Part shown: positions 186 to 5,467 of the stretch, piece by piece | Numbering within the stretch: the first letter of the stretch is position 1 | How the letters are laid out: the number at the start of each line of letters is the position of its first letter | DNA from: Candidatus Rokuibacteriota bacterium | GTDB taxonomy: Bacteria; Methylomirabilota; Methylomirabilia; Rokubacteriales; CSP1-6 | Length of the DNA stretch: 60,838 bases | Direction of reading: 5' to 3' | Assembly (NCBI GenBank): GCA_023248995.1 | Contig: JAHFDN010000017.1 | Location: 1 to 60,838, forward strand | The notes under the pieces: model-generated | Seen by the model: the letters and a program-made list of their open reading frames with translations, nothing else | Told to the model about the DNA's origin: nothing | Databases searched by the model: none | Position numbers and translations under genes: made by a program

Positions 186-1091
186 TCAGACAGGCGCCTC
201 ACGTGGAGAGGGTTTGAGGAAGGTGTAGACGGACGAGAAATCCTTCCGCCCCAGGCCGTGGCTCGAGGCCAGCCGGTAGAGCTCGAACGCGGCGGACGCC
301 ACGAAGACGGGCTGGCGCAGTTCCCGCGCGGCGTTGACCGCCAGCCCCAGGTCCTTCGCCATGAGGTCGGTCATGAAGCCCGGGGCGTAGTCACGGTTCG
401 AGGCCGCCTTCGCCACGAGCCCCGGGACCGGGTGGTTGTGCTCCATCGCCCACGTGTGGCCTGAAGATTTGGAAATCACCTCGGTCAGGATCTTCGGGTC
501 CACGCCGAATGCCTCGGCCAGGCGAAAGGCCTCGCTCACCGCCACCGTGGCGACCCCCGCGATGAGGTTATTGCAGAGCTTCGCCACCTCCCCGCTCCCC
601 ACCGGACCCACGTGGATGATGTTGGAGCCCATGGCGGCAAGCGCCGGCCGCGCCTCCTCCAGATCCCTGGAATCGCCGCCCACCATGATCGTCAGCGTCC
701 CCTCGACGGCGCGCGGCACCGCCCCCGACACGGGCGCGTCCAGGAAGCGGACCCCCTTGGCCTTCGCCCGCTCCGCGACACGGCGTGATGTCGACGGATC
801 GATCGTGGACATGTCCACGCAGAGACGGCCCGCGGGCGCGCCGGCGAGCACGCCGTCGGGTCCCAGGTAGGCCGCCTCCACGTCGGAGGAGGACGGGAGC
901 ATGGTGATCACGAGGTCGGAGTCCCGCGCCGCCTCGGCCGACGACGCGGCCACCGCCGCGCCCCGCCGGCGCGCCTCCTCCAGCGCCTCCGGCCGGGCGT
1001 CGTAGGCCAGCACGGAGAATAGGGCCTTCACGAGATTCGTGACCATGGGAATGCCCATGGTCCCTGTCCCGACGAACCCGATCCGTTTCAT
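186..1091 (-). CDS. NAD(P)-dependent 3-hydroxyisobutyrate dehydrogenase-family oxidoreductase
   Basis: A 301-aa beta-hydroxyacid dehydrogenase that should oxidise a 3-hydroxy acid (or reduce the matching semialdehyde) with NAD(P). The N-terminal Rossmann fold shows GTGTMG at residues 8-13. The substrate signature DAPVSG is at 118-123. The catalytic lysine motif EVAKLCNN is at about 168-175 (Lys171), followed by the all-alpha C-terminal domain. Length and motif order match the MmsB/GarR/glyoxylate-reductase group; the substrate cannot be read from sequence. The ATG overlaps the stop of the upstream 358-aa gene by 4 nt (ATGA), so it is the third gene of the selenoprotein operon and probably works on the same small-molecule pathway. 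Confidence 0.9.
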   Translation of the reverse strand: MKRIGFVGTGTMGIPMVTNLVKALFSVLAYDARPEALEEARRRGAAVAASSAEAARDSDLVITMLPSSSDVEAAYLGPDGVLAGAPAGRLCVDMSTIDPSTSRRVAERAKAKGVRFLDAPVSGAVPRAVEGTLTIMVGGDSRDLEEARPALAAMGSNIIHVGPVGSGEVAKLCNNLIAGVATVAVSEAFRLAEAFGVDPKILTEVISKSSGHTWAMEHNHPVPGLVAKAASNRDYAPGFMTDLMAKDLGLAVNAARELRQPVFVASAAFELYRLASSHGLGRKDFSSVYTFLKPSPREAPV

Positions 1092-2164
1092 TCTCTGTGT
1101 CCTCCGTTGAGGAGACGGGTGAGCGGGCGGTGCACTGCCCGGCTGAACGTCGAGTTCGGGACGACGGCCGAGTGTTTGCCGGCCCCGCCCGCGACGATCA
1201 CGAAGATCTCTTCCGGCGAGGCCACGATCGGCAGGAGCGTCCGGTCATCGGTGACGGCCCTCATCCATTCCGGCCAGTCCTGAATCCCCCACATGCCGCC
1301 CAGCTTCAGCGTGCCGAGCGGGAGCCGCGCGTGCTCGAAGACGAACCTCTTGACCTCGCCCTTCGACAGGCCGTCCCCCGCGATCGTGGCGGCGTGCTCG
1401 GGCCCGAGAACCAGGAGCAACTGGCTCTGGGAGAGGTACCACTTGACGTTGGAGCCGAGCGTCGCCGCCGTGTCCGACACCGTGTGGAGGATCCCCGCCG
1501 CCCCCGTAGAGACGTGGTCGTTGACGTTGTGGGGCGCCTCGCCCCCGAAGACGGTGACCACCGACTGGTCGGGGGCGTACCCGAGCTCGACGTGGAGCGG
1601 CGCCCACGGGCACGCCGCCTCGTTCTCGGCAATCGCGTAGGCGAACTTGGCCGGGCTCCCCTGGGTCGCCATGTCGTGACGCCCGGGCCAGCCCCCGCCG
1701 ACGTTCATCAGGATCAACCGGATCGCCCGGCCGATCGTCGCGTTGGCGCGGAAGCCCGGGCCGAAGCAGCCCGAGCCCCCGTGCATGCCGATGGCACGGG
1801 CGTACGGGCCGCTCAGGATCAGGAGCGGCGCCACCGGGTGGGTCGTGGCCTGGACCCCGTAAAGGTTGAAGGCGGGATCGAGCATCGCCTCGACCGCGGT
1901 CAGGACGACCGGGAAGTGAGCGGGCAGGCAGCCGGCCATCACGGCGTTGACCGCGAGCTTCTCCAGCGTCGCCTCGCGCCAGAGCGGCGGGAGCGCGCCC
2001 AGGGATTCCTGGGGATCCCCGGCCACGGCCCCGAGCATCGACTCCACCCGCTCGAGGGTCGGCGGGATGATCGGCAGGCCGTCGCACCACTCGCGCTCGC
2101 AGAAGGCCGAGAAGACGGCCTCAGGAGAGTCGGGGAGCTCGAGGATTTCCGAAAGAAGCGTCAC
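1088..2164 (-). CDS. conserved protein of unknown function, coupled to the UGSC selenoprotein
   Basis: A 358-aa protein I cannot assign to a characterised enzyme. It is probably cytoplasmic: no signal peptide or clear membrane helix is seen. Visible features are an N-terminal CEREWCDGLPIIPPT segment with a Cys pair (Cys23 and Cys27), a Gly-rich GGSGCFGPGF loop near the middle with one Cys, NVGGGWPG, and a C-terminal IVAGGAGKHSAV stretch. The Cys residues and Gly loops would suit a redox or ligand-binding role, but that is inference. The start is a GTG whose last base is shared with the TGA of the selenoprotein gene (GTGA), and its stop overlaps the dehydrogenase start. The three genes are therefore translationally coupled and probably act together. 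Confidence 0.75.
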   Translation of the reverse strand: MTLLSEILELPDSPEAVFSAFCEREWCDGLPIIPPTLERVESMLGAVAGDPQESLGALPPLWREATLEKLAVNAVMAGCLPAHFPVVLTAVEAMLDPAFNLYGVQATTHPVAPLLILSGPYARAIGMHGGSGCFGPGFRANATIGRAIRLILMNVGGGWPGRHDMATQGSPAKFAYAIAENEAACPWAPLHVELGYAPDQSVVTVFGGEAPHNVNDHVSTGAAGILHTVSDTAATLGSNVKWYLSQSQLLLVLGPEHAATIAGDGLSKGEVKRFVFEHARLPLGTLKLGGMWGIQDWPEWMRAVTDDRTLLPIVASPEEIFVIVAGGAGKHSAVVPNSTFSRAVHRPLTRLLNGGHRE

Positions 2165-2724
2165 GGTTTGACACCGATCAGCGCCACGAGCTCCCGCACC
2201 GCCTGCTGCGCCCGGCGGAGGACGCCGTCGGGTTTTTCGCCGCCCAGCGGATGGTCAATGACCAGGAGCGGCAGCCCTCCGATCCCGCGGGCCCGGAGCT
2301 CCGCCGCCGCCAGCGGCTCGAACGTCGTCGTCGCGATCAGCCCGGCCGGCGTGCCGCCCTTGGCCAGCTCCACCGCGTCGTGGAGACTCCACGACGTGCA
2401 GGAGCCTCAGTCGGCCGAGCCGGCCAGGACGAGATCGCAGGCCTTGGCCAGCGCCTCCAGGATCTCCGGCGCGGCGGGGGAAGAAGCGTTCGCCTTCCTC
2501 CGGTGGACGACGTCTTGGACGCCGAAACCTCGCCGGAGGAGCTCGCCCATGTCGGCCGCGAGACGATCGAAGTTCGCCTTGGTATTGTCGAGAAAGCCGA
2601 TGGTCTTCCCCCGGAGGTCCGAGGGGAGCGCAGGCGCCGTCAGGACGCTTGGACGCGCCTCCCCCACAGGGCTCAGCACGCGAATAGATCTGGACTCGGA
2701 CATGGAGGGCGTCTCCCGGCCCAT
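2161..2724 (-). CDS. UGSC-family selenoprotein (in-frame TGA read as selenocysteine)
   Basis: Two adjacent minus-strand reading frames (2407-2724 and 2161-2406) lie in the same phase and are separated only by TGA at 2407-2409. Read through as selenocysteine they give one 187-aa protein in which residues 106-109 are U-G-S-C, preceded by AGSAD and followed by TSWSLHDAVELAK. This is the defining Sec/Cys-G-S-C motif of the UGSC family, which is close to this length. No premature-stop interpretation is needed, because the sequence after the TGA is family-like and stays open to the natural stop. A SECIS-like hairpin follows the TGA by 10 nt. The start is ATG 2724, with a second Met at residue 8. 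The function is unknown; a thiol/selenol redox role is likely. No selA, selB, selC or selD lies in the window. Confidence 0.88.
2376..2396 (-). promoter_or_regulatory. bacterial SECIS-like hairpin for UGA recoding
   Basis: On the minus-strand mRNA an 8-bp perfect stem (CGUCGUGG / CCACGACG) encloses the 5-nt loop AGUCU. The stem begins 11 nt after the UGA, and the loop G lies about 20 nt from it. Bacterial SECIS elements sit inside the coding sequence, with a G near the start of a small apical loop some 16-37 nt after the UGA; this hairpin meets those rules. The same bases encode the conserved TSWSLHDA residues. Pairing was done by eye, without an energy calculation. Confidence 0.75.
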
Positions 2725-2947: not shown

Positions 2948-5467
2948 ATGCGCATCGCCTTCGGCTGCGACCACGCTGGCCACCCGTTGAAGGAGCCGAT
3001 CATCTCGGCTCTGGAGGAGGACGACCATCACGTCCTCGATCTCGGGACCTTCTCCACCGATCCGGTGGACTACCCGGATTTTGCCCGAGCCGTCGGCAAG
3101 GCGGTGCGCAACCAGTTCGTCGAGCTGGGGATCCTGGTCTGCGGCAGCGGGGTCGGCGCCGCCATCGCCGCCAACAAGATCCCGGGCGTGCGCGCGGCGC
3201 TCTGCCAGGACCTCTTCACGGCGCGCCAGAGCCGCGAAGACGACGACGCCAACGTGCTCTGCCTGGGCGCCCGCGTGCTGAACGCCGAGACCGCCATCGA
3301 ACTCGCCCGCGAATGGCTCGCGACGTCGTTTTCCGGTGAGGAGCGGCACGTTCGCCGCCTCGCCAAGATCGTCGAGCTGGAGCAGGGAGCTCTCCACCCA
3401 ACGGCCGAACGGACGGTCCGCCGCGAGTCCGCCCCCCGGCTCACCGTCCCCGCGCCCGTCAAAGAGCCCGCGACCCCTCGGGCCAGACCCGAGCCGCGGC
3501 CAGTCCCGACCCCAGAGGAAGCCCCGGCGCGGCCGATTCCCCCCCCCGCCCGGGAACGCCCGGCTCCTCCCCCCCCACGGCCCGACGAGGAGCGCGTGGA
3601 TCTCGATCCGTCACTCGCCGACGAGGTCGCCAAGGTCATCGAGGAGTTCGACCGGGAGACCGGCGTCGTGGAGCCGAGGCCGCGCCCCGCGCCAGTGCGG
3701 CCGGCCCCCAAGGCCGCACCACCCACCTCCCCGCCGCCACCGCCACCGCCTCCTCCACCGCTCCCACCGCCGACCCCGGCCGAGCGGACGGCCCAGATGG
3801 CGGAGGCCACCCTCGCGGCCCTCGAGCGGAGCGGGTTCGTCGAAAGCCTCTGGATCAAAGACGCATCCATCTGGTCGGAGGACAGCGCCCAGCAGGCGGT
3901 GATCCGAAATCGCCTCGGCTGGCTCACGTCGCCGACCTTGATGCAGGGGCACGCCGACGAGCTCAAGGAGTTCGCCGACGACATCCGCCGCTCTCACTAC
4001 ACCCACGCGCTCCTCCTCGGCATGGGAGGGTCCACCCTCTGCCCCGAGGTCCTCTCGCTCACCTTCGGTTCGAAGATGGGATTCCCGGACCTGGTGGTCC
4101 TCGACTCCACCGACCCGGCTGCCATCAAGGCCACGTTGAACCGGATCAACCTGCCTCGCACCCTGTTTGTGGTCTCCTCGAAGTCCGGCCTCACCACCGA
4201 GACGCTCGCCTTCTACTCCTTCTTCCGCGAGCAGGTGGAGCGCGGCTCGCGGGGGAAGCCCGGCCTCCAGTTCGTCGCGATCACGGACGGCGGCACGCCC
4301 CTGGAGAAGCTGGCGAAGAGCCAGGGTTTCCGCAAGATCTTCCTCAATCCGCCCACCATCGGCGGCCGCTTCTCGGGGCTCTCCTACTTCGGCCTCCTGC
4401 CTGGTGCGCTGGTCGGCATCGACGTGACCGGACTCCTGGAGCGGGCGGTCGCGGCGGTGGAAGAGGCCAGCGATTCCGTCCCCGTCCGGCAGAATCCCGG
4501 CGTCGTCCTGGGCGCCAAGCTGGCCGCCTGGGCCAAGGCGGGTCGCGATAAGGTGACCTTCGTCTTCTCCCCCGCCCTCGCCCCCTTTGGCGCCTGGGTG
4601 GAGCAGCTCCTCGCCGAAAGTCTCGGAAAGAACGGGCGCGGCCTGATCCCGGTGGACGGCGAGCCTCTCGGCCCCCCGACTGTGTACGGCTCCGACCGTC
4701 TCTTCGTGGCGATCACCTTGGCCGAAGAGGCCGTCGCGCTCGAGGCCGGCCTCGCGGCGCTCGAGGAGGCCGGCCACCCGGTGATCCGGATCCGCCTGGA
4801 GGAGATCCTGGACCTGGGCCGCGAGTTCTACCGGTGGGAGATCGCGACGGCGACTCTCGGGGCCGTCCTGGAGGTCAATCCCTTCGACGAGCCGAACGTC
4901 CAGGAGTCCAAGGACAACACGGCCAAGCTCCTGGCCACGTACCGCACCAGCCGCCGGCTGCCCGAGTGGCCCGTGGACCGCGAAGAAGACGGCATCGCGC
5001 TGCTCACCGGCGCGGGCACGAAACCCTCCACGGTCGCCGAGGGGCTCGGGGCCCACCTGGGGCTGGCGCGGCCGGGGGATTACCTGGCTTTGCAGGCGTA
5101 CCTGCCGCCACGACCGGAGATGGTCGAGGCCTTCCAAGAACTGCGCCGGGTCATGCGTGACAAGTCCAAGCTCGCCGTGACGTTGGGCCTCGGTCCGCGC
5201 TACCTGCACTCGACCGGGCAGCTCCACAAGGGAGGTCCCCCGAGCGCCCTCATCATCCAGATCACCGCCGACGATCCTCACGATCTGCCCATCCCGGGGG
5301 AGACGTTCACGTTCGCCGTCTTGAAGAACGCCCAGGCCCTAGGCGATCTGCAAGCGCTCCGAAACAAAGGCCGGCGGGTGATCAGGGTCCACCTGGGCGG
5401 AAAAGACCCGGTGGACACCCTGAAGAAGTTCACCGCGATTCTGGCCCGGGTCGTCCCCGCCCGCTAG
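2948..5467 (+). CDS. ribose-5-phosphate isomerase B fused to glucose-6-phosphate isomerase
   Basis: An 839-aa fusion of two sugar-phosphate isomerases. Residues 1-150 are RpiB: FGCDHAG at 5-11, catalytic Cys65 in CGSGVGAAIAANK, and DDANVLCLGAR near 99-109. They would interconvert ribose-5-P and ribulose-5-P. Residues of about 155-285 are a low-complexity Pro/Ala/Glu/Arg linker with a long polyproline run. Residues of about 285-839 are a PGI domain of the type found in transaldolase-PGI fusions: GMGGSTLCPEVL, VSSKSGLTTET, ITDGGTPLEK, GGRFSGLSYFG and ESKDNTAKLLATYR. They would interconvert glucose-6-P and fructose-6-P. It heads an operon with gnd, zwf and pgl, so one locus covers the oxidative pentose-phosphate branch and both of its exits. 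Both catalytic domains look intact. Confidence 0.92.
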   Translation: MRIAFGCDHAGHPLKEPIISALEEDDHHVLDLGTFSTDPVDYPDFARAVGKAVRNQFVELGILVCGSGVGAAIAANKIPGVRAALCQDLFTARQSREDDDANVLCLGARVLNAETAIELAREWLATSFSGEERHVRRLAKIVELEQGALHPTAERTVRRESAPRLTVPAPVKEPATPRARPEPRPVPTPEEAPARPIPPPARERPAPPPPRPDEERVDLDPSLADEVAKVIEEFDRETGVVEPRPRPAPVRPAPKAAPPTSPPPPPPPPPPLPPPTPAERTAQMAEATLAALERSGFVESLWIKDASIWSEDSAQQAVIRNRLGWLTSPTLMQGHADELKEFADDIRRSHYTHALLLGMGGSTLCPEVLSLTFGSKMGFPDLVVLDSTDPAAIKATLNRINLPRTLFVVSSKSGLTTETLAFYSFFREQVERGSRGKPGLQFVAITDGGTPLEKLAKSQGFRKIFLNPPTIGGRFSGLSYFGLLPGALVGIDVTGLLERAVAAVEEASDSVPVRQNPGVVLGAKLAAWAKAGRDKVTFVFSPALAPFGAWVEQLLAESLGKNGRGLIPVDGEPLGPPTVYGSDRLFVAITLAEEAVALEAGLAALEEAGHPVIRIRLEEILDLGREFYRWEIATATLGAVLEVNPFDEPNVQESKDNTAKLLATYRTSRRLPEWPVDREEDGIALLTGAGTKPSTVAEGLGAHLGLARPGDYLALQAYLPPRPEMVEAFQELRRVMRDKSKLAVTLGLGPRYLHSTGQLHKGGPPSALIIQITADDPHDLPIPGETFTFAVLKNAQALGDLQALRNKGRRVIRVHLGGKDPVDTLKKFTAILARVVPAR

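Follow-up and report, generated by a model that had tools for sequence, protein, structure and literature searches.

On the minus strand of the window, which is the whole 60,838-nucleotide contig JAHFDN010000017.1 of a Candidatus Rokuibacteriota bacterium, positions 2161-2724 are, as judged from the sequence, one intact selenoprotein gene of the UGSC family and not two broken fragments. The next reading frame overlaps this gene and codes for a 358-aa partner protein. In our view the UGSC selenoprotein and its partner are best explained as a two-subunit oxidoreductase similar to the selenoprotein B of glycine reductase, GrdB (probability about 0.7). UGSC selenoproteins have been on record since 2007-2008 and the window gene is another member of this known family. 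We add to the family the partner, the predicted fold and the GrdB link, of which the first and the last also go beyond the preliminary description of this DNA; the reductive mechanism is inferred from these additions. The features are as follows.

2161..2724, minus strand: UGSC selenoprotein gene, 187 aa (PF24696, E 2.5e-44; AlphaFold2 model with pLDDT 92.3)
2407..2409, minus strand: in-frame TGA, the U of UGSC; every listed UGSC match in the order has TGA at this column, and 63 homologues have a Cys codon there; column invariant in a 65-row alignment
2376..2396, minus strand: SECIS-like hairpin with a 9-bp stem and the loop GUC; its apex carries G23-U24
1088..2164, minus strand: partner protein, 358 aa (AlphaFold2 model with pLDDT 93.8); its start overlaps the UGSC stop (GTGA)
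186..1091, minus strand: 3-hydroxyisobutyrate-dehydrogenase-family gene, third in the overlapping cluster (TIGR01692, 338 bits, cut-off 291.6)

The read-through gene and its UGA codon

Two minus-strand frames, 2724-2410 and 2406-2161, lie in one phase with the TGA at 2407-2409 as their sole interruption, and reading through this codon gives a 187-aa protein with the junction SAD-U-GSC-TSW. In a Pfam search the read-through protein reaches 151.9 bits with PF24696 (curated cut-off 25 bits) and covers nearly the whole model. Each half alone also passes the cut-off (E 5.5e-17 and 1.2e-18), thus the joined reading is not due to chance. The NCBIfam equivalog NF041046, scored with Cys replacing Sec, gives 116.4 bits (E 1.1e-33). 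This is slightly below its cut-off of 125 bits, which fits a divergent UGSC subfamily. The family motif U/C-G-S-C is present as DUGSC, and D-C/U-G-S-C is invariant across 65 aligned sequences. The more likely start is ATG 2703 (MSESRS...), which fits the relatives better than ATG 2724 (MGRETPS...). The gene truly ends at the second 'U' of the read-through, TGA 2161-2163, a stop codon that shares letters with the GTG start of the following gene.

UGSC genes were found in all 60 genomes of the order that we examined, with 1 to 12 matches per genome, and exactly one in-frame TGA is present in every match among those listed. A scan for DCGSC retrieved 63 Cys homologues from Sphingomonadales, Alcaligenaceae, Actinomycetota, haloarchaea, Methanobacteriaceae, Clostridia and others; Pseudomonadota and archaea are among the holders of the Cys form. 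The tree requires five changes between Sec and Cys. Nearest to the window gene are rows of Cys forms from Binatia and Myxococcota, a tentative placing in a quick tree with long branches.

The genome (2.34 Mb, a 97% complete draft assembly with the window as contig C48) encodes selA (593 bits), selB (380 bits), tRNA-Sec (70.9 bits) and selD (347 bits). The genes for selB, selA and tRNA-Sec, the latter with UCA anticodon, are found within about 5 kb on contig C51. The selD gene on contig C22 (L026, C22:271492-272433) has one in-frame TGA inside, and its product is probably itself a selenoprotein. A second UGSC gene with one TGA is located on contig C2 and also adjoins a partner gene. For Methylomirabilota, the same phylum, a 2026 review (PMC13188914) describes one genome in which 63 selenoprotein genes are predicted. 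In keeping with this phylum, a pMMO/AMO gene is present in all three genomes that we searched from a genus of the same class.

The preliminary description had proposed the two same-phase frames, the SAD-U-GSC-TSW product, the family assignment, Sec or Cys at the motif position and the presence of Sec machinery in the organism. The positions and the translation are confirmed. PF24696 matches both sides of the TGA, a check that had been set beforehand, the homologues carry either TGA or a Cys codon at this place, and the genes of the Sec machinery have all been located. Sec is therefore almost certainly the residue placed at TGA 2407-2409, as far as can be read from these comparisons. It is extremely improbable that this TGA is a true stop which, by a nonsense mutation, a sequencing error or a split gene, leaves two fragments: the standard code does give two ORFs and the draft assembly is in 57 contigs, but both halves are intact, Sec machinery and a conserved covarying hairpin are present, and since the identical codon is TGA in every UGSC match listed from the 60 genomes we reject this reading for practical purposes.

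The SECIS-like hairpin

A perfect 8-bp stem (CGUCGUGG/CCACGACG) with the loop AGUCU is located at 2396-2376 and begins 11 nt past the UGA, just where the preliminary description had put it. RNAfold adds an A-U pair, which extends the stem to 9 bp, and an outer stem, with a folding energy of -26.5 kcal/mol. If the U of UGA is given position 1, the stem consists of positions 14-22 paired with 26-34. The hairpin folds better than dinucleotide shuffles (z -2.4) and better than sequences with synonymous codons (z -3.4). A search of the whole window with Rfam at the gathering threshold gave no match.

The same hairpin recurs in 30 distinct Sec genes and is best formed in most of them; GU is found at positions 23-24 in 30 of 30. 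Related sequences are not independent. We therefore put weight on the covariation between two subfamilies and on the contrast between Sec and Cys genes. Among 12 distinct sequences, four of the nine pairs show changes on both sides (13 cells), and 96% of the cells pair. This covariation score was reached by none of 500 shuffles, and slid versions of the hairpin fail. The mean synonymous-codon folding z is -1.33 in the Sec genes compared with +0.19 in the Cys genes. A similar contrast is seen at the apex codon: of 29 Sec genes 28 have AGT here, whereas the Ser codons at this position of the Cys homologues are AGC (12), TCG (1) and never AGT. In six genes of the window only 1 of 132 Ser codons is AGT. 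Thus the suggestion that the hairpin is SECIS-like is borne out: it is conserved with covariation in the Sec members and not favoured in the Cys members.

The partner protein and the likeness to GrdB

The start of the 3-hydroxyisobutyrate-dehydrogenase-family gene overlaps the partner stop (ATGA), so that all three genes are linked by overlaps. With a partner profile search we found a partner homologue adjacent or fused to UGSC in 62 of 63 Cys loci: 25 are fused in one ORF, in 19 UGSC comes first and in 18 the partner. In the Sec loci the partner adjoins nearly all UGSC genes, often as tandem duplicated pairs. It is very probable that UGSC and the 358-aa protein are a functional pair. This genome has three partner genes compared with two UGSC genes. 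The third, a lone paralogue (L183 4643-5677; G000:C36:20657-21622), adjoins a TRAP transporter DctM gene, and within the stretch examined around this C36 copy there is no UGSC or GrdB domain. Lone partners like it also occur in relatives.

The Cys-type operons contain FCD/GntR and IclR regulators, AMP-binding ligases, acyl-CoA dehydrogenases, TctC/TctA and ABC transporters, as well as CoA-transferase III (7 of 96 neighbours). Together with the 3-hydroxyisobutyrate-dehydrogenase-family gene in the window, these contents suggest organic-acid catabolism. The neighbours of the Sec copies in relatives are mixed. In archaea of the Methanobacteriaceae type, a class I lysyl-tRNA synthetase gene is found near Cys-UGSC (tRNA-synt_1f in five neighbours; L132, L135, L136, L139, L142). 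Divergent from the UGSC operon, the plus strand of the window carries at 2948-5467 an 839-aa ORF in which ribose-5-phosphate isomerase B (LacAB_rpiB) and a phosphoglucose-isomerase-like domain are joined by a Pro-rich linker; gnd, zwf and pgl follow in a pentose-phosphate cluster.

A probable relationship of UGSC to GrdB emerges from profile comparisons. In one chosen hhalign comparison (65 UGSC rows, 14 GrdB/PrdB-like rows) the two families align over 93 columns with a probability of 94% and E 1.5e-7, and the U/C-G-x-C motifs coincide, Sec on Sec. A smaller set gives a probability of 83% and E 9e-6. When the HMM of each family was run against 6,020 frames, all from the loci gathered here, UGSC and GrdB came out as each other's top outside match, though each score taken singly is weak (E 0.001 to 1). 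The match to GrdB is confined to the second half of UGSC. A Pfam search of the read-through protein gives PF24696 and no match to PF07355, and neither PF07355 nor PF09338 has a match in the own genome. We found no GrdB structure on which UGSC could be superposed. Nor did we find such a link stated in passages from the open-access papers that name both 'UGSC' and 'glycine reductase'. From these comparisons we consider UGSC to be probably homologous to the Sec domain of GrdB. As a separate observation, short proteins that match only the C-terminal part of PF07355 and have an in-frame TGA (U-P-V-C or U-G-L-C) are widespread in the phylum (L088-L097 and similar loci). They are a PrdB/GrdB-like selenoprotein family.

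The partner was also compared with GrdE (PF09338), and this candidate was rejected (hhalign probability 0.1%). As the partner is unrelated to GrdE by sequence, there is no need to assume for it the pyruvoyl chemistry known from glycine reductase. Searches of Pfam, NCBIfam and PDB with the partner sequence gave no family match, and its AlphaFold2 model has no close fold in the PDB. Class I fumarate hydratase is a weak Foldseek match (E 2e-4, with TM at no more than 0.26-0.30), and cyclic amide hydrolases are still weaker ones. These matches would speak for a non-redox enzyme, i.e., a lyase, isomerase or hydrolase in which Sec or Cys serves as nucleophile or metal ligand. This is the most serious of the alternatives, but we regard it as unlikely, because the TM-scores are too low to assign a fold and both the UxxC arrangement and the GrdB likeness favour redox chemistry.

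For UGSC itself a Trx-like fold was suggested in 2008 (PMC2398784). The AlphaFold2 model has five strands alternating with helices, and Sec is located just after the third strand. Its PDB matches are generic Rossmann/flavodoxin-like proteins (TM about 0.4-0.5) and none is a thioredoxin; a search of PDB sequences with the UGSC profile gave no credible relative. UGSC is thus predicted to be Rossmann/flavodoxin-like, and the earlier fold suggestion is not supported. This bears on the proposal, following the same study, which would make UGSC a generic thiol-disulfide oxidoreductase of the thioredoxin-like kind, or an antioxidant protein, and the partner no more than its protein substrate. The UxxC motif and the published fold suggestion agree with it, as does a Bordetella operon in which Cys-type UGSC is accompanied by CoA-transferase III, TctC and then thioredoxin reductase (TIGR01292 above cut-off). 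That neighbour, however, was seen in this one operon, the operons appear catabolic, and the predicted fold is a different one. We hold this proposal to be quite improbable.

Proposed reaction and comparison with known systems

We suggest that the GrdB-like two-subunit oxidoreductase is made and acts in the following steps. SelB with Sec-tRNA would decode the UGA at 2407-2409, guided by the downstream hairpin. The UGSC protein would then act together with its partner of 358 aa, the product of the next, overlapping ORF, and both would form a thiol/selenol oxidoreductase working like GrdB. While the partner holds the substrate, Sec99 (numbered from ATG 2703) could attack it; the selenenyl intermediate could be resolved by Cys102 of U-G-S-C, and thioredoxin/thioredoxin reductase might finally re-reduce the UGSC protein. 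From the gene context a small organic acid or acyl compound is the candidate substrate. The Bordetella operon with its thioredoxin reductase, CoA-transferase III and TctC also fits such a reductive and organic-acid setting. GrdB-like reductive chemistry is a tentative assignment to which we give slightly less than an even chance. The odds are about even for the wider picture, in which UGSC and its partner are an uncharacterised two-subunit reductase, widespread in bacteria and archaea, with Sec and Cys versions, with shared ancestry of its Sec domain with GrdB, with an unrelated partner of new fold and with up to 12 UGSC copies per genome in the order.

To our knowledge no function is known for the UGSC family. 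It is among the most abundant selenoprotein families of aquatic metagenomes (PMC2398784). The near-constant partner, the predicted fold, the GrdB link and the Cys versions in culturable organisms make its function directly testable. The window gene also illustrates how such genes are lost by gene callers that stop at TGA.

Similarities to known systems exist at several levels. The hairpin resembles the SECIS of E. coli fdhF: both form within the gene, immediately 3′ of the UGA, and both present G23-U24 at their apex, as we confirmed with the fdhF sequence. In fdhF, G23-U24 has a role in SelB binding and a bulged U also has a role; the window hairpin differs in that its stem is continuous, without the bulged U. 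With the UGSC family (PF24696 / NF041046; PMC2398784, PMC13188914) the window gene shares the full-length match, the UGSC motif and the TGA-encoded Sec with its downstream hairpin; fusion to a conserved extra domain is on record for the family. It differs as a divergent SADUGSCTSW subfamily, which is about 28-42% identical to other Sec copies in relatives and 45% identical to a Binatia Cys form. Zhang & Gladyshev reported in their GOS study a fusion of UGSC with a domain 'Unknown_1' (PMC2398784). The partner resembles it as a conserved domain that occurs fused to UGSC, 25 times in our collection, and is probably this same domain. Compared with GrdB of glycine/sarcosine/betaine reductase (PF07355) and its short PrdB-like relatives, UGSC is without the long N-terminal region of GrdB and its partner is not GrdE (PF09338), but UGSC shares with them the Sec or Cys that opens the UGxC motif, the ExxGxP segment that follows and the HP-G motif near the C-terminus (UGSCTSW...HPLG in UGSC).
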